Positions 24,508-43,689 of a stretch of DNA of 64,000 nt are shown one piece after another (positions within the stretch are counted from its first letter, which is position 1; the number at the start of each line of letters is the position of its first letter). This DNA comes from Shinella daejeonensis (lineage in GTDB: Bacteria > Pseudomonadota > Alphaproteobacteria > Rhizobiales > Rhizobiaceae), in NCBI RefSeq assembly GCF_024281235.1, contig NZ_JAHWXY010000002.1, positions 558,001 through 622,000 on the forward strand, given 5' to 3'. Made by a program: the position numbers and the translations under genes. The notes under the pieces are model-generated. The model was not told the DNA's origin. It did not search any database and saw nothing but the letters and a program-made list of their open reading frames with translations.

Positions 24508-24516
24508 AACTCTGCC

Positions 24517-25611: not shown

Positions 25612-25661
25612 CAGATAATCTCCCACGAGGCGACGAGCGATATCGCCGCAATGTCACGGGC

Positions 25662-25683: not shown

Positions 25684-25711
25684 CAAAATGCAATAACTAT
25701 TTTTTGAGATT
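25679..25711. terminator. Inverted repeat at the end of the GntR gene
   Basis: AATCTCAAAA (25679-25688) and TTTTGAGATT (25702-25711) are a perfect 10-bp inverted repeat with a 13-nt loop. It straddles the TAG stop of the GntR gene. It is AT-rich, so it may be a regulatory dyad that overlaps site B as much as a terminator. Confidence 0.4.
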
Positions 25712-26629: not shown

Positions 26630-26715
26630 ATCCGGTGTTCCGAGACGATCCGCGGACGTTAGTCCACGACCGCGACAAAATAAACAAGGAACGGGATTTT
26701 TTGCATGCCTAACTG

Positions 26716-26776
26716 ATTAAAAGCCAATGAAACAGCGAAATTCCATTGACTTTCCATAATTATTGGATTTTTAGAT
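26716..26776. promoter_or_regulatory. Divergent promoter region with two TTGGCTTTTA-like sites
   Basis: ATTAAAAGCCAAT (26716-26728) is the reverse complement of ATTGGCTTTTAAT, and ATTATTGGATTTTTAGAT (26759-26776) is a near match in the forward direction. They flank TTGACT at 26746-26751, a possible -35 element for the aconitase gene. The region serves the GntR gene leftwards and the aconitase gene rightwards, as expected for autoregulation. Confidence 0.45.
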
Positions 26777-26803
26777 ACAAAAAATCAGTTTGGAAGATGG
26801 CAA

Positions 26804-29411: not shown

Positions 29412-29515
29412 AAGCGGTTCCGGTTTCCACACAATCGGTAGATCCGCTCTATCTTATTGTTTTGGCCGCATTTCTGGATGCAAAACCGTTTCACGCTTTT
29501 GCTGGAAATGCTCTA
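29412..29515. repeat. RIME-like palindromic intergenic element, copy 4 (divergent)
   Basis: Read on the minus strand it starts TAGAGCATTTCCAGCAAAAG, continues with GTGAAACGGTTTTGCATCC and AAAACAATAAGATAGAGCGG, and ends in AAACCGGAACCGCTT. The ends and the AAAACAATA centre match copies 1 and 3, but the inner hairpin is of the CGTGAAACGGTTTTGC type that is common in Rhizobium and Agrobacterium. Its TAG is the stop codon of the SDR gene at 29513-30247. It separates convergent aconitase and SDR transcripts. Confidence 0.7.
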
Positions 29516-30247
29516 TGGCAGACTGAGTCTCGCCATCCGCCCGCCGTCAACCGTCCAAACCTGGCCCGTGACGAAAGCCGCTTCTTCCGATGCCAGCCAG
29601 GCGACGAGACTTGCCACTTCTTCCGGCTTTCCTGTTCGTCCCACCGGATGGATCTTGCCGATCGTCCGGCGAAACCCCTCCGGATCGGGCATGCTCTCGA
29701 TGAAATCGAGATTGAGATCGGTGTCGATCCACCCGGGAGCCACCGCATTGCAGCGCACCCCCTCGGCGCCGTGATCGATCGCGACCGCCCGCGTCAACCC
29801 ATGCAGGCCGGCCTTGGAGGCGCAATAGGCCGCGTGCTGCGGATTGGAGCCGAGCGCCTCGATCGAGCCGACATTGACGATCGCGCCACCGGCCTTCCGC
29901 AGATGCGGCAGCGCCGCCTTGATCAGCATGAAGGGAGATGTGAGGTTCACGACGAGCATGCGCTCCCAATCGGCCAGCGACATGTCCTCGACAAGGGCTT
30001 CCTGCATGACGCCCGCATTGTTGACGAGGACGTCCAGCCGTCCGGCGCGGTCGACCACGCTCTCGACCACCACCGCCGCGCTTGCGGGGTCGGTGAAATC
30101 GGCGGCGATGCCTTCAAATTCGGGCTCCGGTCCCCGCTGCGCCGTGAAGACACGCGCGCCTTCGTCGCGAAGTCTTCGCGCGATCGCCTGACCAATGCCG
30201 CTGCGTCCCCCCGTCACGAGGGCGACCGTTCCGTCAAATCGGTTCAT
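29513..30247 (-). CDS. SDR-family oxidoreductase
   Basis: A 244-residue classical short-chain dehydrogenase: [16 protein letters not shown] cofactor motif, VNNAGVM, Ser in VNVGSIEAL, catalytic YCASK, and the C-terminal [11 protein letters not shown]. The start at 30247 overlaps the upstream SDR stop in an ATGA. It is the last gene of the betaine-importer operon. The in-frame TAG stop belongs to repeat copy 4. The substrate is probably a hydroxy or oxo intermediate of the imported amine; this is inference. Confidence 0.87.
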
Positions 30248-30978
30248 CCTACCGGCTTTCCTCCATTCACCTCGACCAGCGAACCGCACATGTAGCGCGC
30301 GGCATCCGAGGCCAGGAACGCGACGACGTCGGCAATATCCTCAGGCTCCGCGATCCGTCCGAGCGGCACGGTCTTGCCGAGTTCGGCAATGGCCGTATCG
30401 GGATCGAAACCTCGCCTGGCAAAGCCCGTACGCAGCATGGGGGAATTCACCTCGTTGGGACAAACGGCGTTCACCCGGATGTTTTCATGGGCATGGTCCA
30501 TGCCCATGCACTGGGTCAGCGAGGCGATCGCCGCCTTGGTCATGCAATAGACCGCATGGTTCGGCCCCGGCCTGACACCCCAGCAGGACGAGACATTGAC
30601 GATGGCGCCGCCGCCTGCCGCGGCCATGATGGGGATGGCGCTGCGGCAGATGCGGAAGGGCGCCTCGACATTGACGCCGAGCGACAAGGCCCAATCCGAA
30701 TCCGCCGTGGCCGTCACCGGCCCGCGGGTGATGACGCCGGCATTGTTGATAACGATATCGAGCGCGCCGAGCGCGTCGAAAGCGGCCGTCGGCAGCGCGT
30801 CCGCATAGGCGGGGTCGAGCAGGTCGCCGGGCAGATGTGCGTCGGCCTCCACGCCCGAAACATCGCGATCCGCGACGGCGACGATCGCCCCTTCCGCACG
30901 GAACTGGCGCACGATCGCCGCCCCGATCCCACCCGCAGCGCCCGTAACCAGCGCCGCCTTTCCACGAAATCTCTCCAT
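30244..30978 (-). CDS. SDR-family oxidoreductase
   Basis: A 244-residue classical short-chain dehydrogenase with [23 protein letters not shown], the catalytic Ser in [14 protein letters not shown] and the C-terminal [16 protein letters not shown]. It lies 17 bp after the GlxA-type regulator gene and overlaps the next SDR by 4 bp. Two adjacent SDRs in one operon often act on sequential intermediates or opposite stereoisomers. Confidence 0.87.
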
Positions 30979-30995: not shown

Positions 30996-31946
30996 TCAGT
31001 TGAGGACGGATCGCTGGTTGACCGGCGACTTGCCGAAATGATCGCGGTAGACCCGCGAGAAATGCGATGTCGACGTGAAGCCGCAGGCCATGGCAATCTC
31101 GGTGATCGCCTGCTCGGACTGCATGATCAGGTTTCGCGCCCGATGAAGACGCGCTTCCAGAATGTAGCGTTTCGGAGTGGTGTTCAGATACCTGCTGAAG
31201 AGCCGTTCCAGCTGGCGCGTCGAAATACCGAGCCGTTTCGAAAGCTCATAGCTGGAGAACGGTGTTTCAAGGCTCTCCTCGATCAGCCCGATCGCCTGTG
31301 CGAGACGATTGTTGCGGATGCCGTATTTCGCGCGAGCCGAAACCCTTTGTGTCGCGCTTGCCTCGCGAGCCCCGGAATAGACCATCTGGTCCGCCACCGC
31401 AGCGGCGAGATCGCGCCCATGATCACGCGCGATCCTGTGCAGCATCAGGTCCGCGGCGGCCGCCCCGCCGGAAGCGGTGACGAATTTCTCGTCGGCGACG
31501 AAAACGGATTTCGTCAGGTTGACGAAGGGAAACCGCTCCTTGAAGAGATCATGATACTGCCAATGCACCGCCGCCCGCCGTCCGTCGAGCAGCCCGGCCT
31601 CGGCCAGAACATAGGCGCCCGAGCAGATGGCGCCGATCGGGACGCCCCGCACCCGCTCGGTCCGCAGATAGGAGAGAAGCCGGGGGGTGACGTGATGTTG
31701 CACATTGATCCCCGAAATGAGGAACAGCGCCTCACCGCGTTCCAGCGGCGTCAGGTCCTGATCCACAAGCGTCACCGCCCTGTTGGAACAGATGGCTGAC
31801 CGTCCGTCGGCCGAAGCCAGGCGCCAACGATAGAGTTCGCGGTCGGCGACGAAATTGGCGATCCGCAACGGCTCCAGCGCGCAGGCGAAAGCCAGATGCG
31901 AAAAATCCTCGACCAGGAGAAAAACGACATCGGATACGTCATTCAT
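30996..31946 (-). CDS. GlxA-family AraC regulator (GATase1-like plus AraC), GbdR/CdhR type
   Basis: A 316-residue protein: residues about 1-190 form a DJ-1/PfpI (GATase1)-like sensor domain (VVFLLVEDFSHLAFACALEPLRIAN, GAICSGAYVLAEAGLLDGRRA) and residues about 215-310 form two AraC helix-turn-helix motifs (LSKRLGISTRQLERLFSRYL and ITEIAMACGFTSTSHFSRVYR). Members with this layout include the glycine-betaine regulator GbdR and the carnitine regulator CdhR of Pseudomonas. Encoded within the proVWX operon, it is a plausible sensor for a betaine or its catabolite. ATG at 31946 is preferred over a longer frame to 32000. Confidence 0.85.
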   Translation of the reverse strand: MNDVSDVVFLLVEDFSHLAFACALEPLRIANFVADRELYRWRLASADGRSAICSNRAVTLVDQDLTPLERGEALFLISGINVQHHVTPRLLSYLRTERVRGVPIGAICSGAYVLAEAGLLDGRRAAVHWQYHDLFKERFPFVNLTKSVFVADEKFVTASGGAAAADLMLHRIARDHGRDLAAAVADQMVYSGAREASATQRVSARAKYGIRNNRLAQAIGLIEESLETPFSSYELSKRLGISTRQLERLFSRYLNTTPKRYILEARLHRARNLIMQSEQAITEIAMACGFTSTSHFSRVYRDHFGKSPVNQRSVLN

Positions 31947-31996
31947 GATGAACACCCGGCAGGCTACGGGGCGCCCGCGGGCGCCCCTGCCCGACA

Positions 31997-32983
31997 TCAT
32001 TTCGCCGCGTCGCGGGCCGCCGCCAGCCAGCCGTCGTATTCAGCCTGATGGGCCTTGATCCACGCATCGACATGCCGGTCGATATCGTCGGAGTTCTTCT
32101 CGCCATCGGCAATCTGCTTGTTCTCCGCGGAAATGTCGTTGATGCTGACTTTCGCGACTTCGAACAGCTTCGCCGCGGCCGGGTTGGCCTCGAGGAAATC
32201 GTTGCGGGCGATGATCCGCAGGTTGTCGACCGCAAAGCCGAGGTTCTTGCCCCCGAACTCGGTATTGCCGGTGGCGCCGTCGGGCAGCGACGTGTAGGGC
32301 ACATCCAGCCATTCCACATCCTTGCCGGGGACAAGCGCGCCGGAAACCCAATAGGGCGTCCAGGTAAAATAGAGCACCGGCTCGCCGTTCGCCACCCGGG
32401 CGATCGTATCGGCGATGATGGCGTTATATTCGCCCTGGTTATGGGTGATGGTGTCGCGCAGGCCATATTCGGTCAGCGCATGCTCGATCACCCGCTCGCA
32501 GCCCCAGCCGGGCACACAGCCGGCGAGATCCGCCTTGCCGTCCCCGTCCGCGTCGAATTTCCGGGCGACTTCCGGATCCTTGAAATCGCCGAGGTTCTTG
32601 ACGCCGGCGTCATAGCTCGCCTTGTCGACGAGGTAGCCCTGAAGCGCGCCCTCGACAAGGGTGCCGACCTTGGTCATGACATCGGGGCCGCCGGCCTCAT
32701 TGAAGAAGGTATTGTGCAACTGGTCCCAGCTGTTGGTGAAATAGTCGGCGTCGCCGGTGCCGACGGCGAGATGCGCGGTCTGGGCGATGACCTCCTGCGG
32801 CTGCGCGACGGTATAGCCCAGTTCCGTCAGCGCGCGGTCGATGATGCGCGCCTGGAAATATTCCTCCAGAACCGGCTGCACGACCGGGCGCACGGTAACG
32901 CCTTCTCCCGGCCGGTCGTTGGCGAAAAGGGGGCTTGCAGACAGCGACATCGCAAGTGCGGCCGTCACGGAAAGAATTTTCAT
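31997..32983 (-). CDS. proX: Glycine/proline betaine ABC substrate-binding protein
   Basis: A 328-residue ProX-like periplasmic protein. A signal peptide (KILSVTAALAMSLSASPLFA) precedes ERP-rich mature sequence with VTVRPVVQPVLEEYFQARI, DADYFTNSWDQLHNTFF and VLYFTWTPYWVSGALVPG; the aromatic residues in the last motif form the quaternary-amine cage in this family. AGAGGAG precedes the ATG, which overlaps the proW stop. It delivers a betaine to ProW/ProV. Confidence 0.9.
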   Translation of the reverse strand: MKILSVTAALAMSLSASPLFANDRPGEGVTVRPVVQPVLEEYFQARIIDRALTELGYTVAQPQEVIAQTAHLAVGTGDADYFTNSWDQLHNTFFNEAGGPDVMTKVGTLVEGALQGYLVDKASYDAGVKNLGDFKDPEVARKFDADGDGKADLAGCVPGWGCERVIEHALTEYGLRDTITHNQGEYNAIIADTIARVANGEPVLYFTWTPYWVSGALVPGKDVEWLDVPYTSLPDGATGNTEFGGKNLGFAVDNLRIIARNDFLEANPAAAKLFEVAKVSINDISAENKQIADGEKNSDDIDRHVDAWIKAHQAEYDGWLAAARDAAK

Positions 32984-33948
32984 AAGCGTTCTCCTCTGGG
33001 TTTTGGTTCTTTATCGGCTGAGGTCTGGAAGAGGTTGGCGATCAGGCCCACCGGACCGGTCTGCCACCAGTGGCGATGTCCGCGATCACGGCCCGACCGG
33101 CCGAGGCCCTGCGTGATCCGGTCCAGCACGATGGCCAGCATCACGATGCCGAGGCCGCCGACGATGGCCTTGCCGGCGTCGAGACGGCCCATGGCGCGCA
33201 GGACTTCGTTGCCGAGGCCGCGAACGGAAATCATCGACGCTATGACCACCATGGAAAGCGACAGCATGATCGTCTGGTTGAGACCGGCGAGGATCGTGGG
33301 CGTTGCAAGCGGCAACTCGACCTTGAAAAGAATCTGCAAGGGCGTGGCGCCGAAGGCGCGCGCCGCTTCCACCACATTGGCGTTGACGGTCCGGATGCCG
33401 AGCGAGGTCAGGCGCACCAGCGGCGGCAGGGCGAAGACGATGGTGACGATGACGCCGGAAACATTGCCGATGCCGATCATCATCACCACCGGCACCAGAT
33501 AGACGAAGGCCGGGATGGTCTGCATCGTGTCGAGGACGGGACGGATCGCCCGCTCGAAATGGTCGCTCTTGCCGGCGATGATACCGAGCGGCAGACCGAT
33601 CAGCACGCAGAGAACCACGGCCGAGATCACGATGGCGAGCGTCGTCATCGCCAGCGCCCAGGCCGCCGGATCGAGAAGACCAAGCACCATCAGGCAGCAG
33701 AACACCAGAAGCGCCACGCGCCGACCGGCCGCCTGCCAGGCGATGAGCACCAGAATGAGGAGCATGACCATCGGCGGCACCGCCTGAAGCACATTCTCGA
33801 TCCGCACGATCACGCTCTCGAAGAAAGTCTTCAGCGGCTGGATCATGGCGCGGTTCGCTATCGCCCAGCCCTTGATGCCGTCGGCCCATTCGCCGATACC
33901 GAGATTGATGGAAGCGAAGGGATTGAGCCAATCGAAACGATCCGCCAT
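32980..33948 (-). CDS. proW: Glycine/proline betaine ABC permease
   Basis: A 322-residue ProW-like inner-membrane permease starting MADRFDWLNPFASINLGIGE. Several hydrophobic segments and the EAA loop EAARAFGATPLQILFKVELP are present, with the ProW-typical MLSLSMVVIASMISVRGLG. The ATG at 33948 overlaps the proV stop by one base (TGATG), so translation is coupled; a 9-residue longer frame exists inside proV. Confidence 0.92.
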   Translation of the reverse strand: MADRFDWLNPFASINLGIGEWADGIKGWAIANRAMIQPLKTFFESVIVRIENVLQAVPPMVMLLILVLIAWQAAGRRVALLVFCCLMVLGLLDPAAWALAMTTLAIVISAVVLCVLIGLPLGIIAGKSDHFERAIRPVLDTMQTIPAFVYLVPVVMMIGIGNVSGVIVTIVFALPPLVRLTSLGIRTVNANVVEAARAFGATPLQILFKVELPLATPTILAGLNQTIMLSLSMVVIASMISVRGLGNEVLRAMGRLDAGKAIVGGLGIVMLAIVLDRITQGLGRSGRDRGHRHWWQTGPVGLIANLFQTSADKEPKPRGERL

Positions 33949-35036
33949 CACGCGACCTCCGCCTGTCGCTGGCACGACTCGTCGCGGCCCTGAATACCGC
34001 GCAAGAGCGCGCTTTTGGTCACCACGCCCACGGGAGCGCCATCGGCAACGACCAGGATCGGATGATCGGTCGCAACCGCCAGATCCACGAGGGCATTCAG
34101 CTTGTCGGAGGGTGCGGCGGCCAGCCAGGAGGCGGTATCGGCCGCGCCATGGTTTTGCTCATACCGGCCGAGCGGCTGCATGATGCGCGCCGCCGTCACC
34201 AGATCCAGCTTGGAGATGCCGCCCACGAATTCGGCGACATAGTCATCCGCCGGTTCGGTGACGATCTGTTCGGGCGTGCCGATCTGGACGAGCACGCCGT
34301 CTTTCATGATGGCGATGCGGTCACCGATGCGGATCGCCTCCTCGAGGTCATGCGTGATGAAGACGGTGGTCTTTTGAAGTTCGGCGGAAAGTTCCATGAA
34401 GGTGCCTTGCAACTGCCGGCGGATCAGCGGGTCGAGCGCGGAAAACGGCTCGTCCATCAGCAGGATCGTCGGATCGGCGGCGATCGCGCGGGCAAGGCCG
34501 ACGCGCTGCTGCATGCCGCCGGAAAGCTCATCGGGATATTTATGGTCCCAGCCGCTCAGTTCGACGGCCTCGATCGCCCGGCGCGCCACCTCCCGTCGCC
34601 TGCCTTCCGGCACTCCGCGCACCTCGAGCGCGAATGCGACGTTGTCGCGTACGTTGCGGTGCGGCATCAGGGCCATGTTCTGGAAGACCATGCCCATCTT
34701 TTCCGCCCTTACGGCCCGAAGTTCCTTCGCCCCCATTTCATTGACGTTGCGCCCCTCGATGTAGACGGCGCCCTGTGTCGGCTCGATGAGGCGGTTGATA
34801 TGCCGGATCAGGGTCGACTTGCCGGACCCGGACAGCCCCATGATGCAGAAAATTTCGCCACGCCCCACCGAGAAGGTGGCGTCACGCACGCCCACAACGC
34901 AATCGAGCCTGTCGCGGATGTCTTCTTTCGTCAGGCCGCCGGTCTGGATGGCGCTTATGGCCTCCTGCGGCTTGCCTCCGAAAACTTTCCAGATTCCCTC
35001 ACAGCGGATCACTGCGTCATGTGATTGATCGGCCAT
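33948..35036 (-). CDS. proV: Glycine/proline betaine ABC ATPase with C-terminal CBS region
   Basis: A 362-residue ATPase: Walker A GLSGSGKST, Q-loop MVFQNMALMPHRNV, signature LSGGMQQRVGLARAI, Walker B ILLMDEPFSALDPL, and a C-terminal CBS-like region (about 280-355, VATDHPILVVADGAPVGVVTKSALLRG by its ends) as in OpuAA/ProV, which can sense ionic strength or nucleotides. It opens the minus-strand operon proV-proW-proX-glxA-type regulator-SDR-SDR and is divergent from a GntR regulator. A strong GGGGGAGGA lies just before the ATG. Confidence 0.93.
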   Translation of the reverse strand: MADQSHDAVIRCEGIWKVFGGKPQEAISAIQTGGLTKEDIRDRLDCVVGVRDATFSVGRGEIFCIMGLSGSGKSTLIRHINRLIEPTQGAVYIEGRNVNEMGAKELRAVRAEKMGMVFQNMALMPHRNVRDNVAFALEVRGVPEGRRREVARRAIEAVELSGWDHKYPDELSGGMQQRVGLARAIAADPTILLMDEPFSALDPLIRRQLQGTFMELSAELQKTTVFITHDLEEAIRIGDRIAIMKDGVLVQIGTPEQIVTEPADDYVAEFVGGISKLDLVTAARIMQPLGRYEQNHGAADTASWLAAAPSDKLNALVDLAVATDHPILVVADGAPVGVVTKSALLRGIQGRDESCQRQAEVA

Positions 35037-35087: not shown

Positions 35088-35099
35088 ATTGTAGACAAT
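35088..35099. promoter_or_regulatory. GntR-type operator candidate between proV and the GntR gene
   Basis: ATTGTAGACAAT is a perfect ATTGT-N2-ACAAT dyad, the form of operator bound by many FCD-type GntR regulators. A second overlapping dyad AGACA-ATA-TGTCT spans 35093-35105. The site lies in the 129-bp divergent promoter region, so the GntR protein could control both the proVWX operon and the catabolic operon that it heads. Confidence 0.5.
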
Positions 35100-35165: not shown

Positions 35166-35873
35166 ATGAGCGGTGACGCAAAACGCAATAAATTAAATTG
35201 CTTGGAGGATCTGAAGCGGCGGATATTGACGGAGGCGCTGGAGCCAGGCGTCTATCTCGATGAAGTGGACCTGGCCGAGGAATACGGGATTTCACGCCCG
35301 CCGCTGCGGGAAGTCCTCCGACAGCTCGCCGGAGAAGGCTACGTAGTGCTGCACGAGAACCGCGGCACCCAGGTCGCCCCGATGACCCACAAGACGCTGC
35401 GCAACTTCTTCATCGTCGCACCGATGGTCTATGCCGCCATCGGACGCCTTGCCGCCCGCAACGCGACCCGCGCCCAGATCATGCGCCTCAAGGATACGCA
35501 GCTCCTCTTCCGCGCCGCCATCCGGGATGGAGACGGCGAGCAGAGGGCGCTGACCAACGAGCGCTTCCACTCGGTCATGGGCGAAATGGCGGACAACGAG
35601 TTCCTGATGCCGAGCCTTCGGCGCCTGCTGATCGATCACACCCGGATCGGCATGATCTTCTACAGCCCCCGAAATGCGGAAATGGCCGATCAACGGGCCA
35701 TTGCGGCCGACCAGCATGACGAGTTCATCGCGCTCATCGAGGCGGGAGACGCGGATGGCTGCGCCGATCTCGCCATTGCCCATTGGGAACTTTCCCGCGT
35801 GCAGATCGAGAGCTTCGTGGCGCCGGGCAGCATTTTCGCGCCATTGGGGCGCATTCCGGACAACATAGGCTAG
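35166..35873 (+). CDS. GntR/FCD-family regulator
   Basis: A 235-residue regulator with one N-terminal winged helix (LDEVDLAEEYGISRPPLREVLRQLAGEGYV, by its ends) followed by the FCD domain (VAPMVYAAIGRLAARNA, ALTNERFHSVMGEMADNEF, HDEFIALIEAGDADGCADLA). GAGGAAG precedes the ATG. It is the first gene of the rightward operon and lies 9 bp before the DapA-family gene. It probably responds to a betaine or proline-like catabolite. Confidence 0.87.
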   Translation: MSGDAKRNKLNCLEDLKRRILTEALEPGVYLDEVDLAEEYGISRPPLREVLRQLAGEGYVVLHENRGTQVAPMTHKTLRNFFIVAPMVYAAIGRLAARNATRAQIMRLKDTQLLFRAAIRDGDGEQRALTNERFHSVMGEMADNEFLMPSLRRLLIDHTRIGMIFYSPRNAEMADQRAIAADQHDEFIALIEAGDADGCADLAIAHWELSRVQIESFVAPGSIFAPLGRIPDNIG

Positions 35874-35882
35874 GAGGTTCCC

Positions 35883-36788
35883 ATGCATTTTGACGGCATC
35901 TACACGCCCGTCATAACCCCCCATCACGATGACGGATCGATCGACCGCGACGCCTTCGCGCGGATGATCGAATACCTGATCGACGCGGGTGTCCACGGCC
36001 TCATCAACGGCGGCTCGACAGGCGAATATTATGCCCAGTCCATGGATGAGCGCATCGAGATGGCGAAATTCGCCAGGGAGGTGATCGGCGACCGCGTGCC
36101 GCTCATCGTCGGCACCGTCGCCATCCGCCTTGAGGATTCCATCGCCATGGCCGAAACGGCGGCGAAGATCGGCGCCACCGGCATTCTCGTCGGCTCGCCG
36201 CCCTATTCGGTCCCGACCGAGCGGGAAAATGCACTGAACGCGCTTGCCATCGACCGCGCGGCGGACTTGCCGATCATGCTTTACAACTATCCCGGCCGCA
36301 TGGGGATCGACATGGGCGAGGAATTCCTCGACCGGGTCGGCCGCAGCCGGAATTTCCGCGCCATCAAGGAAAGCTCCGGGGACATCAACCGCCTTCATCT
36401 TCTTGCGCGCGACTATCCGCATATCCAGACGTCCTGCGGCATGGACGACCAGGCGCTGGAGTTCTTCGCCTGGGGCGCGCAAAGCTGGGTCTGCGGCGGT
36501 TCCAACTTCCTGCCGAAAGAGCATATCGCTCTTTACAAGGCCTGCGTTCTCGAAGGCGACTTCACCAAGGGCCGACGCATCATGTCGGCGCTGATGCCGC
36601 TGATGCGCGTGCTCGAACAGGGCGGAAAATTCATCCAGTGCATCAAATACGGCTGCGAAATGGCCGGCCTCGTCGCCGGCCCGCCGCGTCCGCCGCTGAA
36701 ACCCCTCAACAAGGACGACATGCGGCAACTGGAACAGGTGGTGCGCGTGCTGAAGCGCACGATCGCGGAAATCGAAGCGGAGGCATGA
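35883..36788 (+). CDS. DapA-family Schiff-base lyase/dehydratase (candidate hydroxyproline-pathway deaminase)
   Basis: A 301-residue (beta/alpha)8-barrel of the DHDPS/N-acetylneuraminate-lyase family. NGGSTGEYYAQS is the carboxylate-binding loop, LYNYPGRMG holds the catalytic Tyr, and the Schiff-base Lys is in FRAIKESSGD (about residue 162). AGGAGG lies just before the ATG. Family members include pyrroline-4-hydroxy-2-carboxylate deaminase, the hydroxyproline-pathway enzyme that feeds 2-oxoglutarate semialdehyde to an aldehyde dehydrogenase. The next two genes (aldehyde dehydrogenase and DadA-like FAD enzyme) and HpbD downstream fit that role, but another aldolase or dehydratase role cannot be excluded. 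Confidence 0.82.
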   Translation: MHFDGIYTPVITPHHDDGSIDRDAFARMIEYLIDAGVHGLINGGSTGEYYAQSMDERIEMAKFAREVIGDRVPLIVGTVAIRLEDSIAMAETAAKIGATGILVGSPPYSVPTERENALNALAIDRAADLPIMLYNYPGRMGIDMGEEFLDRVGRSRNFRAIKESSGDINRLHLLARDYPHIQTSCGMDDQALEFFAWGAQSWVCGGSNFLPKEHIALYKACVLEGDFTKGRRIMSALMPLMRVLEQGGKFIQCIKYGCEMAGLVAGPPRPPLKPLNKDDMRQLEQVVRVLKRTIAEIEAEA

Positions 36789-36789
36789 C

Positions 36790-38289
36790 ATGGGCGACCT
36801 TCTGACACACGACGAATACAAGGCGATTGCCGCCGGCCTCGAATTCCCGACACAAGCCTTTATCGACGGCTCCTTCCGGCCGGCGATCTCGGGCAAGACC
36901 TTCCAGACGACCAATCCGGCCATCGGCGCCGTCCTTGCCGAGGTCGCATCCTGCGGCCCGGAAGATGTCGATTTTGCCGTCGGCAAGGCGCGCGACGCCT
37001 TCGAGGACGGCCGCTGGTCGCGGCTGCATCCCGGCGAGCGCAAGGAAATCCTCATCCGCCTGGCCAAACTGATGAAGCGCAACGCCCGCGAGCTTGCCGT
37101 CCTCGAAAGCCTCGATAGCGGCAAGACGATCTACGACTGCGAGACCGTCGACGTCCCCGAGACCATCCATTGCCTGAAATGGCATGCCGAACTCATCGAC
37201 AAGATCTACGATCAGGTCTCGCCCGCCTCGGACAATCACATCGCCATGATCCTGCGCGAGCCGGTCGGCGTCGTCGGCCTCGTGCTGCCGTGGAACTTTC
37301 CGCTGCTGATGCTCGCCTGGAAGATCGGACCGGCACTTGCGGCCGGCAATTCGGTCATCGTCAAGCCGGCGAAGGAAACGACGCTGACGGCGCTGCGTGT
37401 CGCGGAACTCGCCATGGAGGCCGGCGTTCCGGCCGGCGTGTTCAACGTTCTGCCCGGTGGGGGGGAGGAGGTCGGCGAGCCGCTCGGCAAGCACATGGAT
37501 GTGGACATGGTGTCGTTCACCGGCTCCACCGAGACCGGCCGGCGCTTTCCGCGCTATTCGGCCGATTCCAATCTCAAGGAAATCACCCTGGAGATGGGCG
37601 GCAAGAATCCCGCCGTGGTTCTCGACGACGCGGAGAATATCGACCGCGTCGCGGCGCATATCGTCAACGGCGCCTTCTGGAACATGGGCGAAAACTGCTC
37701 GGCCTCCTCGCGGCTGATCGTCCAGCGCGGCATCAAGGACGAGCTTTTGCGGCGCATGGTGGCGCATGCCCGGGAATGGCCGATGGGCGATCCGCTGAAC
37801 CCGGAAAACCGCGTCGGCGCGCTCGTCTCGAAGGCGCATTTCGACAAGGTCGCGTCCTATCTCGAGAAGGGCCAGAAGGTGGTCCTCGGCGGCAAGGCCG
37901 GGGACGGCTTCGTGGAGCCGACCATCATCGACGTCGCCGACCGCGAAGCCAGGGCCGTGCGGGAGGAGATCTTCGGGCCGATCCTGACGGTGCTCACCGT
38001 CGACAGCTACGAGGAAGCGATCGCGCTCGCCAACGACACCGAATACGGTCTTGCCGCCTCGATCTATACGGCCAACGCAAAGCGGGCGATCCGCGGCGCG
38101 CGCGCCATCCGCGCCGGCACGGTCACCGTCAACTGCTTCGGCGAGGGCGACATCGCCACCCCCTTCGGCGGTTACAAGTCTTCCGGCTTCGGCGGGCGCG
38201 ACAACGGTATCCACGCCCACGACCAATATACGCGGATCAAGACGATCTGGATCGACCTCACCGACGACGTGGACGAGGCCGTGTCTTGA
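36790..38289 (+). CDS. NAD-dependent aldehyde dehydrogenase (PuuC-like)
   Basis: A 499-residue aldehyde dehydrogenase: LPWNFPLLMLAWKIGPALAAGN, cofactor loop FTGSTETGRRF, base Glu in LEMGGKNPAVVL, nucleophile in NMGENCSASSRL, and C-terminal PFGGYKSSGFGGRDNG. It resembles gamma-aminobutyraldehyde/PuuC-type enzymes of rhizobia; in this context the substrate could be 2-oxoglutarate semialdehyde or another semialdehyde from betaine or proline breakdown. GGAGG precedes the ATG, one base after the DapA-family stop. Confidence 0.88.
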   Translation: MGDLLTHDEYKAIAAGLEFPTQAFIDGSFRPAISGKTFQTTNPAIGAVLAEVASCGPEDVDFAVGKARDAFEDGRWSRLHPGERKEILIRLAKLMKRNARELAVLESLDSGKTIYDCETVDVPETIHCLKWHAELIDKIYDQVSPASDNHIAMILREPVGVVGLVLPWNFPLLMLAWKIGPALAAGNSVIVKPAKETTLTALRVAELAMEAGVPAGVFNVLPGGGEEVGEPLGKHMDVDMVSFTGSTETGRRFPRYSADSNLKEITLEMGGKNPAVVLDDAENIDRVAAHIVNGAFWNMGENCSASSRLIVQRGIKDELLRRMVAHAREWPMGDPLNPENRVGALVSKAHFDKVASYLEKGQKVVLGGKAGDGFVEPTIIDVADREARAVREEIFGPILTVLTVDSYEEAIALANDTEYGLAASIYTANAKRAIRGARAIRAGTVTVNCFGEGDIATPFGGYKSSGFGGRDNGIHAHDQYTRIKTIWIDLTDDVDEAVS

Positions 38290-39632
38290 TCAATATCAAG
38301 GCTGAAAGGCTGCCGGTCCATCGCGGACCGGCAGCCTGGAGCGCAATTCTTCCCGATCAACCCCCGCCCGTCCGGCTGGAGGAGAACATCACCGTCGACG
38401 TCGCCATCGTCGGCGGCGGATTTGCCGGCCTTTCCGCTGCCCGACGCCTGCATGAAATCGACCCCGCCATCCGCGTCGCCGTTCTTGAAGCTGGCCGGCT
38501 GGCCGAAGGCGCATCCGGGCGGAATTCCGGCTTCATGATCGATCTTCCGCACGATCTGTCGTCGGAAGACTATGCCGGCAAGGGACTGGCCGCGGACCGC
38601 AAGACCATCGCGCTCAACCGGCAGGCCATCGCCTTCGCCCGGGCGGCCGTCGAGGAATACGGCATCGATCCGGCCTGGTTCGATCCGGCCGGCAAGATCA
38701 ACGGCGCAGCAAGCGCGGCCGCGCACGCCCTCAACCGCAGCTATGCGATCCATCTCGAGCAACTTGGCGAAGCCAACGAAATGCTGGACGAAAGGGCGAT
38801 GCTCGAGGTGACGGGCAGCCGGTACTATCGTTCCGGCCTCTATACGCCGGGGGCGGTCATGCTCCAGCCCGCCGGTTATATCCGTGGCGTCGGCGCGGGC
38901 CTGCGCCGGGCGGGCGTTCATATCTTCGAAAACACGGCCGTGACGCAGATCGCCGGCGCGGGCCGGGACTGGCGGCTGACGACGCAGCACGGTCACGTCA
39001 CGGCCGCCAAAGTGATCCTGGCGAACAACGGACACCTCGAAAGCTTCGGCTTCAAGCGCGGCAGGCTGATGCATATCTTCCTCTACGCCTCGATGACGGT
39101 GGATCTCGACCGGAACGCGCTGGCGAAGCTCGGCGGCCGGCCCCGCTGGGGCATCACGCCCTCGGACCCGATGGGCACGACCATGCGCCGTATCGACGCC
39201 GCCCAGGGCGGCAACCGGATCATCACGCGAAGCTGCGCCAGCTACCTGCCCGAAATGAACCCGTCCGAAGCCACCGTCGCGAGCATGGCGCGCATCCATC
39301 GCAAAAAATTTGCCGACCGGTTCCCGTCGATCGCCGACACACCGACGGAATACAGCTGGGTCGGGCATCTCTGCCTCAGCCGCAATGGCGTCGCCGTGAT
39401 GCGCGAACTCGAGCCGGGCCTGTTTTCGGCCTGTTGCGACAACGGGCTCGGCACCGTGCGCAGCACGCTGACAGGCATCGGGGCCGCCGATCTTCTGACC
39501 GGGAATCTTTCCGAAATTTCAGCCCATTTCCTTGCGGAAGACGAGCCCGCGAGACTGCCGTCGCCGCCTTTTGCCGAGATTGGCGCGACCGCCTACCTGA
39601 AGTGGCGCGAATGGCGCGCGCGCCGGGAATAG
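38286..39632 (+). CDS. FAD-dependent amino-acid oxidoreductase (DAO family) with TTG start
   Basis: A 448-residue DAO-family flavoprotein: VAIVGGGFAGLSAARRLHEI is the FAD-binding motif, followed by EGASGRNSGF, a hallmark of PuuB and DadA-like enzymes. I place the start at TTG 38286, which overlaps the aldehyde dehydrogenase stop by 4 bp (TTGA) and has GACGAGG upstream; the first in-frame ATG is inside the FAD motif region. Likely roles are oxidation of a D-proline, D-hydroxyproline or N-methylated amino acid. It completes a DapA-family/aldehyde-dehydrogenase/oxidase trio typical of hydroxyproline-type catabolism. Confidence 0.83.
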   Translation: MINIKAERLPVHRGPAAWSAILPDQPPPVRLEENITVDVAIVGGGFAGLSAARRLHEIDPAIRVAVLEAGRLAEGASGRNSGFMIDLPHDLSSEDYAGKGLAADRKTIALNRQAIAFARAAVEEYGIDPAWFDPAGKINGAASAAAHALNRSYAIHLEQLGEANEMLDERAMLEVTGSRYYRSGLYTPGAVMLQPAGYIRGVGAGLRRAGVHIFENTAVTQIAGAGRDWRLTTQHGHVTAAKVILANNGHLESFGFKRGRLMHIFLYASMTVDLDRNALAKLGGRPRWGITPSDPMGTTMRRIDAAQGGNRIITRSCASYLPEMNPSEATVASMARIHRKKFADRFPSIADTPTEYSWVGHLCLSRNGVAVMRELEPGLFSACCDNGLGTVRSTLTGIGAADLLTGNLSEISAHFLAEDEPARLPSPPFAEIGATAYLKWREWRARRE

Positions 39633-39679
39633 CGCGGCCGCGGACGGGTCGCTTTCCGGCGGGATCAGTTCGGAATTCC

Positions 39680-39704
39680 GGCTGCCGGTTTCCCACCGGC
39701 AGCC
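39680..39704 (+). terminator. Hairpin between the FAD gene and mttB
   Basis: GGCTGCCGG (39680-39688) pairs perfectly with CCGGCAGCC (39696-39704) around TTTCCCA. It lies 48 bp after the oxidoreductase stop and 34 bp before the mttB start. There is no U-run, so it may attenuate or process the operon transcript rather than end it. Confidence 0.45.
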
Positions 39705-39738
39705 CACATTGGCAAAAGAATGACGAGGAGGAGATCCC

Positions 39739-41292
39739 ATGAACGAAGTGGCAGTCCGACAAAGCCGGCACGGCGGGCGCGATGCGCGGCGAAGCCTCCG
39801 CTCGGCCCCCGACCTCGCGATGCTGCCGGCCCTTCACCGCGGCCTGCCGGTGACGGAACTGATGGACGCCGAGCATGTCGCGCGGATCGACGATGCATCC
39901 ATGTCGATCCTGGAAGAGGTCGGCGTCGTCTTTCGTGATCCCATCGCGCTGGAGGACTGGAAAAGGGCGGGCGCGGACGTTCGCGGCGAGCGCGTGCATC
40001 TCGACCGGAACCTCGTGCGCGAGTTGATCTCGACGATCCCCGCCGGCTGGACCTACCTTGCCCGCAATCCGCAGCGAAGCTTGCCCTTAGGCGGCAAGCA
40101 CTCGATCTTCGTGCCGATGACGGGCGCGCCCTTCATCCGTGACCTCGACGACGTGCGCCGCTGGCCGACGATTGCCGACCTCAACATGTTCCACAAGCTG
40201 GCGCATATGTCGCCGGCGCTGCATTCATCGGCCCATCACATCGTCGAGCCGATGGACATGGTGGTCAGCCACCGGCATCTGGCGATCACCTATTCCTCGA
40301 TGAAATATTCCGACAAGACCTTCATGGGCATGACCACCTCCGGCAAGAACGCCGAGGACGTCATGGACATGTGCGAAATCCTGTTCGGCGCGGAGACGAT
40401 GGAAACGACGCCCGTCGTCACCGGCAATTGCAACGGCAACTCGCCGCTGGTCTGGGACGAGACGATGCTTTCGGCCATGCGCGCCTTCTGCAAGCGCAAT
40501 CAGCCGGTGCTCTGCTCGCCCTTCGTGCTCGGCGGCGCCAATACGCCCGCCTCGGTGGCCCCCGCCGTCGCCCAGCTCAATGCCGAGGCGCTTTCGGCGC
40601 TCGCCTATACCCAGGTCATCCGCAAGGGCTGCCCGGCCATCTACGGCCATTATCTCTCCACCGTTTCCATGAGGTCGGGCGCGCCGATGGCCGGAACGCC
40701 CGAGATCAGCCTGATGAACTTCATGATCGGCCAGATGGCGCGCCATTACGGCGTTCCGTGGCGCACCTCCAACCTGCTCGGCGGCGCCAAGACCTTCGAC
40801 GCGCAGGCCGGCTACGAGAGCGCCATGACGATGAACGCCGTGCTGCATGCGGGAGCCAACTATATCTGGCATTCGGCAGGATGGAACGAGGCGGGCATGC
40901 ATTGCTCCGTGGCGAAATTCGTCGTCGATGCCGAAATGTGCGCCATGGGCTACCGGATGGCCGAAGGCGTGCGCTGGGACGATTTCGACGAGGCGCTTGC
41001 CGCCGTGCGCGACGTCGGACCCGGCGGCCACTATCTCGGCCACCCGCATACGCAGGCGAATTTCGAACGCGCTTTCTTCATGCCGAAGCTGTTCGACAAC
41101 AATTCCATCGAGCAATGGCAGGTCGACGGCTCGCAGGAAATCACGGCCCGGGCCCTGCAATATGCCCGCAAGCTCCTCGACGATTATCAGGAACCGAAAC
41201 TCGACGAGGGTATCGACGAGGCCCTGCGGGACTACATGGCGAAGCGCAAGCGCGAGATTCCCGCTGTCGACGAGCTGAACACCGAGCATTGA
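39739..41292 (+). CDS. Non-pyrrolysine MttB-family corrinoid methyltransferase (candidate betaine demethylase)
   Basis: A 517-residue member of the trimethylamine methyltransferase (MttB, COG5598) superfamily. It begins its core with MDAEHVARIDDASMSILEEVGVVF and contains TGNCNGNSPLVWDETML, SMRSGAPMAGTPEISLMNFM and AGWNEAGMHCSVAKFVVDAE. No in-frame TAG is present, so it is a non-pyrrolysine member; characterised ones demethylate glycine betaine, proline betaine or carnitine, moving the methyl group to a corrinoid protein. The gene has a GAGGAGGAG site. No corrinoid protein or reactivase gene is in the window. The neighbours HpbD and ProVWX point to a proline-type betaine as substrate. Confidence 0.85.
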   Translation: MNEVAVRQSRHGGRDARRSLRSAPDLAMLPALHRGLPVTELMDAEHVARIDDASMSILEEVGVVFRDPIALEDWKRAGADVRGERVHLDRNLVRELISTIPAGWTYLARNPQRSLPLGGKHSIFVPMTGAPFIRDLDDVRRWPTIADLNMFHKLAHMSPALHSSAHHIVEPMDMVVSHRHLAITYSSMKYSDKTFMGMTTSGKNAEDVMDMCEILFGAETMETTPVVTGNCNGNSPLVWDETMLSAMRAFCKRNQPVLCSPFVLGGANTPASVAPAVAQLNAEALSALAYTQVIRKGCPAIYGHYLSTVSMRSGAPMAGTPEISLMNFMIGQMARHYGVPWRTSNLLGGAKTFDAQAGYESAMTMNAVLHAGANYIWHSAGWNEAGMHCSVAKFVVDAEMCAMGYRMAEGVRWDDFDEALAAVRDVGPGGHYLGHPHTQANFERAFFMPKLFDNNSIEQWQVDGSQEITARALQYARKLLDDYQEPKLDEGIDEALRDYMAKRKREIPAVDELNTEH

Positions 41293-41343
41293 GCCTTTCC
41301 GCCCTCGCGCCTTCCATGGGATGGCCGCTTTTTTGAGATCGCC

Positions 41344-42450
41344 ATGAAAATCAAGGAAATCCACATTTATTCGCATATCCTGCCGGTCGTGGATGGCCCC
41401 TACAGGATCGCCAGCAGCACGGTGTCCTCGCTCGACAGCACGCTGATCAAGATCGTCGCGGATAACGGGCTTTTCGGCTGGGGCGAGACCTGCCCGGTCG
41501 GCCCGACCTATCAGCCGCAGCATGCCGGCGGCGCGCGCGCCGCCCTGGAGGAAATGGCCGCCGGCCTGATCGGCGCAAATCCGCTACAGCCGGTCGTGTT
41601 GCGCCGCACCATGGACGGCCTCCTGAACGGTCACCCCTATGCCAAGGCCGCCATCGACATCGCCGCATACGACATCATGGGCAAGCACTATGGCGCGCGG
41701 GTGGCCGATCTGCTCGGTGGCGTCGTCACCGAACGCGTCCCCTCCTATTACGCTTCCGGGGTCGGCGAACCGGACGAGATCGCCCGGATCGCGGCGGAGC
41801 GGGCCGCAGAGGGCTATCCGCGCATGCAGGTCAAGGTCGGCAACCGGCCGGTCGAAATCGATATCGCCGTCGTCCGCAAGGTCTGGGAGCGGATCGGCGG
41901 CAGGATGCGGCTTGCGGTCGACGGCAACCGTTCGCTGACGACGCGCGACACCCTGCGCCTCAGCCGCGAATGTCTCGATATCCCCTTCATCCTCGAACAG
42001 CCGTGCAACACGCTGGAGGAAATCAAAGCGATCCGCCGCCAGTTGCATCATGGCGTCTATCTCGATGAAAGCGGCGTCGATCTCTCGACGGTGCTTCGCG
42101 CCGTCGGAGAAGGATTATGCGACGGCTTCGGCATGAAAGTGACCCGCATCGGCGGCCTCCAGCAGATGGCCGCCTTCCGCGACATCTGCGAGGCCCGCTC
42201 CATGCCGCACACCTGCGACGACGCCTGGGGCGGCGACGTCATCGCGGCCGCCTGCACCCATATCGGCGCGACCATCCAGCCTCGCCTCAACGAGGGGGTC
42301 TGGCTGGCCCAACCCTATATCGAAGGTCACTACGATCCGGAAAACGGCGTGGCGATCGAGGGCGGCCATATCGAGCTTCCGCGTGGTCCCGGCCTCGGTG
42401 TCATACCGGACGAATCCGTCTTCGGCACGCCTGTCGCCTCATTCGGCTGA
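41344..42450 (+). CDS. hpbD: Enolase-superfamily proline/hydroxyproline betaine 2-epimerase
   Basis: A 368-residue member of the muconate-lactonising-enzyme subgroup. Catalytic Lys164 (MQVKVGN) and Lys265 ([10 protein letters not shown]) flank the metal ligands Asp193 (VDGNRSL), Glu218 (LEQPCN) and Asp241 (LDESG), the two-lysine layout of racemases and epimerases. The N-terminal [15 protein letters not shown] loop and the residue numbering agree with what I recall of HpbD, the 4-hydroxyproline betaine 2-epimerase of Pelagibaca and Paracoccus. It starts 51 bp after mttB. Its stop overlaps the convergent cbiZ stop by 12 bp. Confidence 0.82.
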
Positions 42451-43188
42451 CGGGAGGTCCGTTGATCGCGGTGGCTCGCCCCGGCGGGAACTGTCTGCGC
42501 GGACGGTGGAAAAACCGGTCATCTCTCCGGCTGCCGGACGGCCGTGCTCGGCGATCCAGGCCAGGCCCCCCGCCCTGACGGCATCGTAGACGGATCGGCC
42601 GAGCGCAAGGCCTATGTCGGTGTGCAGCCCGGCGAAACGTTCCTGGCCAGCCCCTTCCGGGGCGGCGACCACCACGCAATCGGTGCCGGTTCCAGTGACG
42701 GGAAGACCGTTGCGCAAAAGGCCAAGCTCCATGACCGCCGCGGTGCGGGCCTCCGTCGCGATCGACAGCGCCTCGATCATCGCGGCCTCGCAAAGCGGCC
42801 GGTCGACATGCGCGAGAAGGTTGATCGTTCCCGTCCGGCCGCCTCGCGTGAACGGTTCCCCGATCCGCCCGGCATTCGAGAGCCCGACCGTCGCAAGGCA
42901 CGACGCCTCCACGCCGCCGGCGGCCGACCGGGCCGTTTCGAAGCGCGTCACATCGCGTGACGTCATGAGATGAACGGCTTCGCCGTGGCCGGCGGCGGCC
43001 ATGCGCGTCTCCAGCAGGTCGAGGGGATCGACGCCGAGCGGCAGGTCCGCGTCCCGTACCTCCAGCCAGGCAACGGCCTTCGACCGCGTAAAACCCGGCC
43101 GCGTCAGCGACCAGCTCAGCATGGTTTGCGGCGCGGCGAACGCAGCCACCAGGAACGGACGCCTGCAATGGACGGAAAACGCGGTCAT
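42439..43188 (-). CDS. cbiZ: Adenosylcobinamide amidohydrolase (corrinoid salvage)
   Basis: A 249-residue CbiZ-family protein. The landmarks are [67 protein letters not shown] and [18 protein letters not shown]. CbiZ cleaves the aminopropanol arm of adenosylcobinamide or pseudocobalamin to give adenosylcobyric acid, letting the cell remodel imported corrinoids. The start at 43188 follows AGGATG; the frame open to 43521 is an antisense shadow of the riboswitch. It faces away from the riboswitch-btu operon. Such genes are often beside BtuFCD importers. Confidence 0.85.
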
Positions 43189-43298
43189 TCGATCATCCTG
43201 CCCTTTCTCGCCGGCGTGCGCCAAGGCCGCCGCGTCACCGCCTACGCGGCGCGCCGCCCGCTGTCGAGGCATTTGTTGTGGGCTCCGGCTCCGGTCGC

Positions 43299-43328
43299 TT
43301 GACCCGCTCTCCAATCGGCCCTTAGGAT
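43299..43328 (+). promoter_or_regulatory. Predicted promoter of the cobalamin riboswitch-btu operon
   Basis: TTGACC (43299-43304) and TAGGAT (43323-43328) are separated by 18 bp and match housekeeping -35 and -10 elements well. Transcription would start about 10 bp before the first conserved helix of the riboswitch. Confidence 0.5.
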
Positions 43329-43338
43329 TTGTCCACGG

Positions 43339-43530
43339 AACAGGTTCCGTCAAAGCGACGGATGAAAAGGGAACACGGTGAAGATCACCCATCGGGGATC
43401 GATACCGTGGCTGCCCCCGCAACTGTAACCGCCGAGCCTGCCTCAGAAAGCCACTGCGCCCGCGCGGGAAGGCGAGGAGAGCGATGACGCGGAAGCCAGG
43501 AGACCTGCCTGTGCCGGTCACCCTTGCCAG
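43339..43530 (+). promoter_or_regulatory. Cobalamin riboswitch
   Basis: The leader holds the conserved blocks of the class I cobalamin aptamer in order: ACAGGTTCC, AAAAGGGAACACGGTG, GCTGCCCCCGCAACTGTAA, and the B12 box GCCAGGAGACCTGCC near 43496-43510. It lies about 160 nt upstream of btuB on the same strand. Binding of adenosylcobalamin should reduce expression of the btuB-btuF-btuC-btuD operon. The expression platform may include the hairpin at 43564-43591. Confidence 0.93.
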
Positions 43531-43563
43531 GATACGGGGCGTATCCGGGCGCGGCCGTCCGTA

Positions 43564-43591
43564 GCGGTGACATTGTGCAAAATGTCACCGC
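43564..43591 (+). promoter_or_regulatory. Perfect 11-bp hairpin in the riboswitch expression platform
   Basis: GCGGTGACATT (43564-43574) and AATGTCACCGC (43581-43591) pair without mismatch around GTGCAA. The hairpin lies between the aptamer and the btuB ribosome-binding site (GGGAG at 43681). No U-run follows, so it is not a classic terminator; it may switch folding, bind a protein as DNA, or protect the RNA. Confidence 0.5.
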
Positions 43592-43689
43592 ACCGGCGGA
43601 CGGTCGATGGGAACCCGCGATTTTCCCCGAAACCTCCTTCGCCCGCGGTGGAAAGCGAGCAGGATCGTCCTGCCGTTCGGGGGAGAAAC

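Follow-up and report, generated by a model that had tools for sequence, protein, structure and literature searches.

An MttB-family methyltransferase gene linked to a cyclic betaine epimerase gene in Shinella daejeonensis: a possible replacement for Rieske demethylation

Methyl transfer of the MttB type has been assigned mainly in anaerobes. The catabolic pathway of hydroxyproline betaine and proline betaine that includes the epimerase HpbD was reportedly described by Zhao in 2013 and Kumar in 2014. As outlined in the part of PMC4113996 that cites it, this pathway shares with the locus described here the HpbD epimerase, betaine uptake and the DAO, DHDPS-family and aldehyde dehydrogenase (ALDH) enzyme classes. 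It differs in that here an MttB protein is found instead of the Rieske enzyme and another DHDPS-family protein (DapA′) instead of HpbG, two SDR genes are present, and the DAO lies outside the HpbG-linked clade. MtpB of Eubacterium limosum is a proline betaine:MtqC methyltransferase (PMC8604678, PMC12155760). Going by the relevant passages of these papers, and by description rather than sequence, it resembles the present system in its non-pyrrolysine MttB family, in the corrinoid-dependent demethylation of a proline-type betaine, which is predicted here, and in the use of several MttB proteins with one corrinoid protein. It differs in that E. limosum is an anaerobic acetogen, and these passages mention no epimerase. 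A 2025 study proposed that aerobic marine bacteria use MttB-type transfer on glycine betaine; sections of it describe glycine betaine demethylation by MtgBCD in the aerobic Ruegeria pomeroyi, and its authors suggest different methylated substrates for additional pfam06253 proteins (PMC12478193). As far as described there, both are aerobic alphaproteobacterial systems of an MttB-family protein, MtgC, MtgD and RamA, but the present one is linked to cyclic betaine genes and its MttB is devoid of the tyrosine proposed to bind glycine betaine.

The window, which is the whole 64,000-nucleotide stretch of S. daejeonensis DNA that was analysed, contains six rightward genes, encoding GntR, DapA′, ALDH, DAO′, MttB and HpbD in this order, with the proVWX genes divergent (Table 1). 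The list of open reading frames and the domain profile searches place all six as open frames within positions 35166–42450, with intergenic gaps of 9, 1, −4, 106 and 51 bp. The enzyme set of the original prediction (a DapA-family protein, an ALDH, a DAO, a non-pyrrolysine MttB and an HpbD-like protein) was recovered as intact frames, and so was the divergent uptake system, in which ProV and ProX exceed curated NCBIfam cut-offs. The start codon of DAO′ was our choice, its reading frame being open from 37170. On the divergent arm, two SDR genes and a gene for a GbdR-like regulator were observed in addition to the genes named earlier.

Table 1. Features of the betaine locus, in window coordinates
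Feature	Position	Strand	Evidence
SDR2	29513..30289	-	PF13561
SDR1	30244..30978	-	PF13561
GbdR-like AraC regulator	30996..32000	-	NF052371 309.7 bits, below cut-off 480
ProX	31997..32983	-	PRK11119 424.8 bits, cut-off 215 (passed)
ProW	32980..33975	-	PF00528 (BPD_transp_1 permease); between ProV and ProX
ProV	33948..35036	-	TIGR01186 352 bits, cut-off 326.6 (passed)
ATTGTAGACAAT palindrome, putative GntR operator	35088..35099	.	ProV-GntR intergenic region
GntR/FCD regulator	35166..35873	+	PF00392, PF07729
DapA′ (DHDPS-family aldolase or dehydratase/deaminase; not HpbG)	35883..36788	+	PF00701
Aldehyde dehydrogenase, probable alpha-ketoglutarate semialdehyde dehydrogenase (inferred)	36790..38289	+	PF00171
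DAO′, FAD-dependent DAO-family amine oxidase	38286..39632	+	PF01266
Putative non-pyrrolysine MttB-family betaine:corrinoid methyltransferase	39739..41292	+	PF06253 733 bits, clade, pocket residues
HpbD, (hydroxy)proline betaine 2-epimerase (MR/MLE enolase superfamily)	41344..42450	+	79.3% identity to PDB 4e8g/4izg/4j1o

Besides its identity to 4e8g, the HpbD protein shares 61.1% with 2pmq, and we take both structures to be those of characterised HpbDs. It clusters with the solved HpbDs in a tree from which six rows that were partial, frame-broken or distant (L063, L070, L072, L073, L074 and L076) had been excluded, so that the earlier assignment as HpbD-like is borne out. Both structures carry the same residue at thirty-five positions, which were picked for conservation of at least 97% in 68 rows. 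Going by its close identity to a solved HpbD, the enzyme would invert carbon 2 of the betaine. The trees used throughout are quick ones with SH-aLRT support only, and several of their long branches are unsure.

The MttB protein matches PF06253 over its full length, and its gene contains no in-frame stop or amber codon. Its score with the trimethylamine methyltransferase model TIGR02369 is 272 bits, below the cut-off of 525. In a tree without rows of 330 residues or fewer, it falls into a different clade from the MtgB-like paralog of the same genome, which is sister to PDB 4yyc and encoded beside MtgC. A docking proposal in the relevant part of PMC6855144 assigns Y94, N199, R309 and H345 to the MtgB pocket. 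The last three are kept as N232, R342 and H378, and the position of the tyrosine is occupied by Thr128; the glycine betaine pocket set is therefore incomplete. All 29 clade members that cover this position have threonine, and the tyrosine is present in MtgB, 4yyc and two paralogs of the own genome. The original prediction depended on a corrinoid protein encoded in the genome. The whole-genome search located genes for MtgC, which is a free corrinoid protein, DUF1638, MTHFR, MtgD and RamA in one stretch of contig C11, beside a further MttB gene. The operon MttB would pair with this MtgC.

Comparison of related loci bears on the role of MttB. Among 71 loci with HpbD relatives, 34 have an MttB match of at least 60% identity (including a few contig-end fragments, one remnant and one split gene), 11 have a Rieske gene only, and 26, which are flank-limited, have neither. 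MttB occurs alone in 31 of the 34 MttB-type loci and together with a Rieske gene in three. In Paracoccus onubensis (L018), genes for a Rieske oxygenase and a reductase lie directly upstream of HpbD, and the remaining cluster genes are present with 59–82% identity; the genome search found no MttB, free MtgC or RamA in this species. In a second locus, L045, a Rieske gene precedes HpbD, and the genes for DapA′, ALDH and DAO are located about 5 kb away. Both Rieske proteins are 56–59% identical to the HpbD-linked Stc2-like Rieske of L028. At least five changes between MttB and Rieske were counted on the HpbD tree. Genome searches covered the 34 MttB-type and 11 Rieske-type loci and five of the 26 loci with neither (50 genomes). 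RamA was detected in 32 of the 34 MttB-type versus 2 of the 11 Rieske-type genomes (Fisher p = 3e-6, kinship ignored). The same numbers and p value, again with kinship ignored, were obtained for free MtgC, a count which excluded PF02607 matches with E above 1e-14, among them weak ones in G042–G045. Both contrasts are confounded by ancestry. Rhizobium freirei has kept most of the cluster with MttB as a remnant, and neither RamA nor free MtgC was found in its genome search. Related bacteria seem to have swapped MttB and Rieske enzymes for one another. Since HpbD loci carry either enzyme, the corrinoid genes are present in the genome and the exchange is seen in P. onubensis, comparative genomics supports the proposal that MttB replaces the Rieske demethylation step.

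The statement that no Rieske gene is visible in the window holds for PF00848: no Rieske demethylase is linked to HpbD there, and all four matches of the whole-genome search lie outside the window. A GbcA/Stc2-type Rieske with a reductase is encoded on contig C3, unlinked to HpbD. It scores 524 bits with the GbcA model (cut-off 670), 559 bits with PDB 3n0q and 538 bits with 3vca, which we take to be Stc2. On these scores, it was assigned neither to the glycine betaine nor to the proline betaine type. Together with the GbdR-like regulator on the divergent arm, this enzyme could be taken to mean that an ordinary Hpb pathway operates with the Rieske in trans, the MttB being a glycine betaine methyltransferase present in the operon by happenstance. 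This appears highly improbable, as the genome already has the separate MtgB-like protein beside MtgC, the operon MttB is devoid of the pocket tyrosine, and 12 of the 34 MttB-type genomes (8 of these 12 metagenome-assembled) showed no GbcA/Stc2-like Rieske at E ≤ 1e-60.

Co-occurrence was also assessed in an evenly drawn set of 385 alphaproteobacterial genomes, with the best few candidates per genome scored. In nine of the ten other genomes with the operon-type MttB, HpbD was not found at E ≤ 1e-120; in the tenth it is present on another contig. HpbD was thus rejected as the gene that defines the MttB clade and appears to be an accessory of the MttB gene set. DapA′ occurs in all ten of these genomes and in 32 of the 34 MttB-type and 5 of the 11 Rieske-type genomes, counts that come from genomes picked for MttB or HpbD. 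The presence of DapA′ in all ten genomes, nine of them without an HpbD match, would, along with the two unexplained SDRs, fit an MttB core acting on a different quaternary amine, with HpbD recruited secondarily or for a separate compound. We consider this quite unlikely, because MttB and HpbD share a common cluster across many genera, with the Rieske taking the place of MttB in L018 and L045. Relatives of SDR1 with at least 55% identity are found in 27 of the 34 MttB-type loci, and likewise those of SDR2.

The original prediction was supported for HpbD, ProVWX, the corrinoid set and MttB in place of the Rieske enzyme. Its further claim, that the remaining genes constitute the known Hpb pathway, was not supported: DapA′ is not HpbG, none of the operon genes was recognised as another N-demethylase of known type, two SDRs do not fit into the scheme, and most of the sampled genomes with this MttB showed no HpbD. 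DapA′ is 29–32% identical to four HpbG-type proteins, a group named by gene neighbours, and has the motifs GSTGEYYAQ, YNYPGRM and IKESSGD versus their SGTGmHVYLS, YNVPqAVG and vKDSSGD; its assignment as HpbG (pyrroline-4-hydroxy-2-carboxylate deaminase) was rejected for these reasons. At E ≤ 1e-50, HpbG was found neither in the own genome nor in 31 of the 34 MttB-type genomes. The 4-hydroxy route is thus without direct support. DAO′ falls outside the clade of HpbG-linked DAOs. The ALDH shares 64–67% identity with three ALDHs of HpbG-linked loci, which nest among the DapA′-linked ones in the tree, and this similarity and intermixing point to the 2-oxoglutarate semialdehyde route.

It is also conceivable that MttB acts on the L-betaine and is followed by distal oxidation on the carbon 5 side. 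DAO′ and ALDH would then convert N-methyl-4-hydroxyproline into N-methyl-4-hydroxyglutamate, DapA′ would be a 4-hydroxy-2-oxoglutarate-type aldolase yielding pyruvate and glyoxylate, and HpbD would serve only for salvage of the D-isomer. This would account for HpbD-less clusters and for the DHDPS-like arginine in YNYPGRM, which has no counterpart in HpbG-type proteins. It would also suit the pyrroline-5-carboxylate reductase-like gene beside DAO or ALDH in five mapped loci; one of these genes scored 139 bits with PRK06476 (NCBIfam), below the cut-off of 254. The close relationship of the ALDH to HpbG-linked enzymes argues against such a route, and we regard it as unlikely.

We propose that the operon probably serves to import and degrade a cyclic betaine of the proline type, an osmolyte of plants or algae, with MttB and MtgC for the first demethylation and DAO′, DapA′ and ALDH leading to 2-oxoglutarate. 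The likeliest substrate is 4-hydroxyproline betaine of the betonicine type, and proline betaine may be used as well. A route for proline betaine only was set aside as first choice, since neither DapA′ nor ALDH should be needed for it. After import by ProVWX and inversion by HpbD, the betaine would lose its first N-methyl group through MttB, in lieu of the oxygen-dependent Rieske demethylase; the acceptor would be the cob(I)alamin of MtgC, a shared protein encoded elsewhere in the genome. MtgD would pass the methyl group from MtgC to tetrahydrofolate, and RamA would reactivate the cobalt. In the order of later steps that we infer, the ring that still bears an N-methyl group would be oxidised and opened by DAO′ and DapA′, and ALDH would form 2-oxoglutarate. 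A retro-aldol reaction to pyruvate and methylaminoacetaldehyde was considered as a candidate. More tentatively, the operon may provide oxygen-independent access to a modular betaine pathway in which two steps are exchangeable: the first methyl group would be removed by either MttB or a Rieske enzyme, and the ring opened by one of two matched pairs, DAO′/DapA′ or DAO/HpbG. The pair found here would act directly on the N-methyl ring with release of methylamine, and the second N-demethylation would therefore be skipped; more Alphaproteobacteria, some with small genomes, would have the HpbD-less core. Points against the proposed main route are the MttB genomes in which no HpbD was found, the rejection of DapA′ as HpbG, DapA′ in Rieske-type genomes, the two SDRs, the C3 Rieske and the three loci with both enzymes. 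The linkage gives another clade of unassigned MttB proteins in Alphaproteobacteria a defined substrate class that can be tested, and would tie betaine use to vitamin B12. It suggests that two unrelated enzymes can fill one pathway position and draws attention to DapA′, a DHDPS-family enzyme that is likewise unassigned.

A palindrome, TTGTAGACAA, is located upstream of GntR. With at most one mismatch, it occurs in 19 of 35 GntR upstream regions versus 0.9% of letter shuffles; the 35 include the window that supplied the motif, and related regions are not independent. The operon arrangement recurs in many genera, and this recurrence, together with the palindrome frequency above that of the shuffles, indicates that it is beyond chance. 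The palindrome is positioned at −69 to −93 in 18 of the 19 matching regions and at −13 in L046.

All six genes of the operon at 35166-42450 (+), encoding GntR, DapA' (a DHDPS-family protein), ALDH, DAO, MttB and HpbD, are open frames, and all but GntR had been noticed from the sequence; the DAO start at 38286 is a chosen position inside a longer open frame. The divergent arm contains ProV, ProW and ProX, a GbdR-like AraC regulator and two SDRs. With the trimethylamine methyltransferase model, whose cut-off is 525 bits, the MttB protein reaches 272, and its gene lacks an in-frame stop; it is thus a non-pyrrolysine member of the family. The palindrome TTGTAGACAA lies 77 bp upstream of the GntR gene and recurs with at most one mismatch in 19 of the 35 GntR upstream regions, the window counted among them, including that of the Rieske-bearing locus L018. 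Judged by position and family, the genes adjoining the operon downstream (see table) possibly serve its B12 supply or uptake. Elsewhere in the window, 18372-29380 encodes kinase-like (SBD_N/NBD_C), Iso_dh, GntR, ABC transporter and aconitase proteins, possibly a cluster of its own for sugar acids or organic acids.

Features adjoining MttB or HpbD genes, or the methyl-transfer partners
Feature	Location	Context
CbiZ-type cobinamide amidohydrolase (PF01955), TonB receptor, periplasmic binding protein, FecCD permease, ABC ATPase	window 42439-48261	adjoin the MttB operon downstream
Rieske oxygenase	L018 (Paracoccus onubensis) 7605-8840	directly upstream of HpbD, with reductase
FAD/NAD/2Fe-2S reductase	L018 (Paracoccus onubensis) 8847-9920	directly upstream of HpbD, with Rieske oxygenase
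MttB in the clade of 4yyc ('putative trimethylamine methyltransferase')	L084, own contig C11, 7080-8690	adjoins MtgC, MtgD and RamA

The best-matching solved structures for the window HpbD are 4e8g, 4izg and 4j1o (675 bits), which we take to be the P. denitrificans HpbD, followed by 2pmq and 4h2h (510 bits), presumably the Pelagibaca enzyme. Identity is 79.3% to 4e8g and 61.1% to 2pmq. At 35 charged or aromatic positions, each conserved in 97% or more of 68 rows, the window protein has the same residue as both structures, a weak test since the positions were chosen for conservation. A scan of genome contigs gave HpbD relatives at 71 loci, one (L076) at 25% identity and all others at 52% or more. 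With thresholds of at least 60% identity for MttB and at least 42% for a GbcA/Stc2-like Rieske oxygenase, 31 loci carry MttB only, 3 both, 11 Rieske only and 26 neither, counts limited by contig ends and the 10 kb flank, which cut many loci. The MttB-type count includes short matches (fragments in L041 and L048, a remnant in L008, a split gene in L072), and the genome search turned up MttB at 77-92% identity in three genomes typed as neither (G046, G047, G048) and one typed as Rieske (G036). In the HpbD tree the MttB and Rieske labels are intermixed, with at least five changes between them, which favours a single HpbD function in both contexts.

DapA' (at least 60% identity) is present at 28/34 MttB-type versus 2/11 Rieske loci, ALDH (60%) at 28 versus 3, DAO (45%) at 30 versus 3, SDR1 and SDR2 (both 55%) at 27 versus 2 and 27 versus 1, and GntR (45%) at 27 versus 1. 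The figures are 18 versus 2 for ProV (60%), 15 versus 1 for ProX (60%) and 15 versus 1 for GbdR (50%). A pyrroline-5-carboxylate reductase-like gene adjoins DAO or ALDH in L033, L034, L038, L048 and L063 (three of the five scanned).

Individual loci illustrate the exchange. L018 also holds SDR1, SDR2, DAO, ALDH, DapA', GntR, ProVWX and GbdR at 59-82% identity, and searches of its genome for the reactivase RamA, MttB (E≤1e-60) and the free corrinoid protein MtgC found none. In L045 (Lichenifustis) the Rieske gene precedes HpbD, with DapA', ALDH and DAO at a distance of about 5 kb. The MttB of L008 (Rhizobium freirei) is a 172-residue ORF (9425-9940) in which a short tail follows residues 1-141, as if an internal part had been deleted; the rest of the cluster is largely kept, and searches of that genome gave neither RamA nor free MtgC. 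Searches covered 50 genomes (34 MttB-type, 11 Rieske-type, 5 others). RamA was found in 32/34, 2/11 and 5/5 (one partial), free MtgC (E≤1e-14) in 32/34 MttB-type versus 2/11 Rieske-type genomes, and MttB of any clade (E≤1e-60) in 33/34 versus 2/11. Fisher's test gives p=3e-6 for both RamA and MtgC; both are confounded by ancestry, since the Rieske set spans Paracoccus, Pseudomonas and actinobacteria. No GbcA/Stc2-like Rieske (E≤1e-60) was found in 12/34 MttB-type genomes, 8 of these 12 being metagenome-assembled and possibly incomplete. The best reading, which we hold somewhat more probable than its alternatives together, is that MttB takes the place of the Rieske enzyme that demethylates a proline-type betaine.

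In the genome of S. daejeonensis itself, four MttB matches are full and a further one is short. PF02607 is matched twice, by a 1273-residue frame that is probably MetH and by a single free corrinoid protein. The latter scores 209 bits against the MtgC models (cut-off 370) and is adjoined by DUF1638, two MTHFR-related genes, a methyl-THF:corrinoid methyltransferase (MtgD; 398 bits, cut-off 259) and RamA. This stretch is similar to the Ruegeria MtgBCD set, in which, according to PMC12478193, MtgC and MtgD take part both in demethylating glycine betaine and in making methionine.

The gene observation stands, and replacement of Rieske by MttB is the best reading; the later steps of the original prediction call for revision. 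DapA' differs in several motifs from HpbG-type proteins (pyrroline-4-hydroxy-2-carboxylate deaminase type, named by gene neighbours), and HpbG (E≤1e-50) was not found in the own genome nor in 31/34 MttB-type genomes. It occurs in 5/11 Rieske-type genomes, one at 44% only; DapA' occurs in 32/34 MttB-type versus 5/11 Rieske-type genomes. In the DAO tree, the seven HpbG-linked proteins group in one clade (100), separate from the DapA'-linked DAOs, and L068 carries one of each, whereas the ALDH tree shows no such split. In L068, L013, L016 and L074, the two DapA types occur together with a single ALDH of the operon's family in the locus. Our interpretation is that there are two alternative oxidase/deaminase pairs that would supply one ALDH and therefore yield a common product, probably 2-oxoglutarate semialdehyde. 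As no second demethylase was recognised, the operon's DAO and DapA' would act on the N-methyl ring.

The MttBs of HpbD clusters form a single clade (31 rows, SH-aLRT 99), separate from the own MtgB-like protein and 4yyc, presumably an S. meliloti protein; deep placements are uncertain owing to several long branches. The L084 protein, a member of the 4yyc clade, adjoins MtgC, MtgD and RamA, which makes a glycine betaine methyltransferase function possible for 4yyc. For D. hafniense MtgB, PMC6855144 proposes from docking glycine betaine-binding residues including Y94, N199, R309 and H345 (numbering offset by one from the chain so that letters match). In the alignment, the equivalents of N199, R309 and H345 are retained in 31/31 HpbD-cluster MttBs, and the Y94 position is Thr in all 29 having a residue there; the own MtgB-like protein and the C8 paralog retain Tyr. 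On contig C11, L085 (10139-15541) contains a divergent MttB, 25% identical to the window MttB and without the pocket Asn, Arg and His in the alignment, directly adjoining a Rieske oxygenase and a dimethylglycine dehydrogenase-type DAO/GCV_T flavoenzyme.

The general idea of MttB proteins acting on other methylated compounds is already in print: PMC12478193 reports that a genome can have as many as seven pfam06253 ORFs and suggests further methylated substrates for them. The assignment of MttB to a proline-type betaine together with HpbD was not found among the literature matches listed, nor was a description of an MttB-HpbD pathway recognised there (proline and hydroxyproline betaine, stachydrine, betonicine, MttB and HpbD literature, most subscription journals being outside the scope).

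Among 385 evenly drawn Alphaproteobacteria, window-type MttB is present in 11 genomes, the own included, the other ten at 75-80% identity. HpbD was found in two of the 11, the own and one other, there on another contig (scoring covered the few best candidates of each genome). DapA', ALDH and DAO adjoin MttB in 5/10 draw loci (L090, L094-L097); L092 has ALDH and DAO, with DapA' about 1 kb beyond the stretch, L099 has DAO alone, and all three are absent from the MttB loci L091, L093 and L098. DapA' is present somewhere in all ten genomes. Given this rarity of HpbD and constancy of DapA', the core is MttB, DapA', ALDH and DAO, and HpbD is an add-on, a result that counts against a simple reading of the operon.

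A second cluster, L086 (contig C22, 538001-558000), lies just left of the window and looks suited to a quaternary amine. It encodes a Rieske oxygenase, SDRs, a beta-keto acid cleavage enzyme (PF05853), an ALDH, an AraC-type regulator and a ProV-like ABC protein; members of these protein groups adjoin MttB-HpbD at L065.
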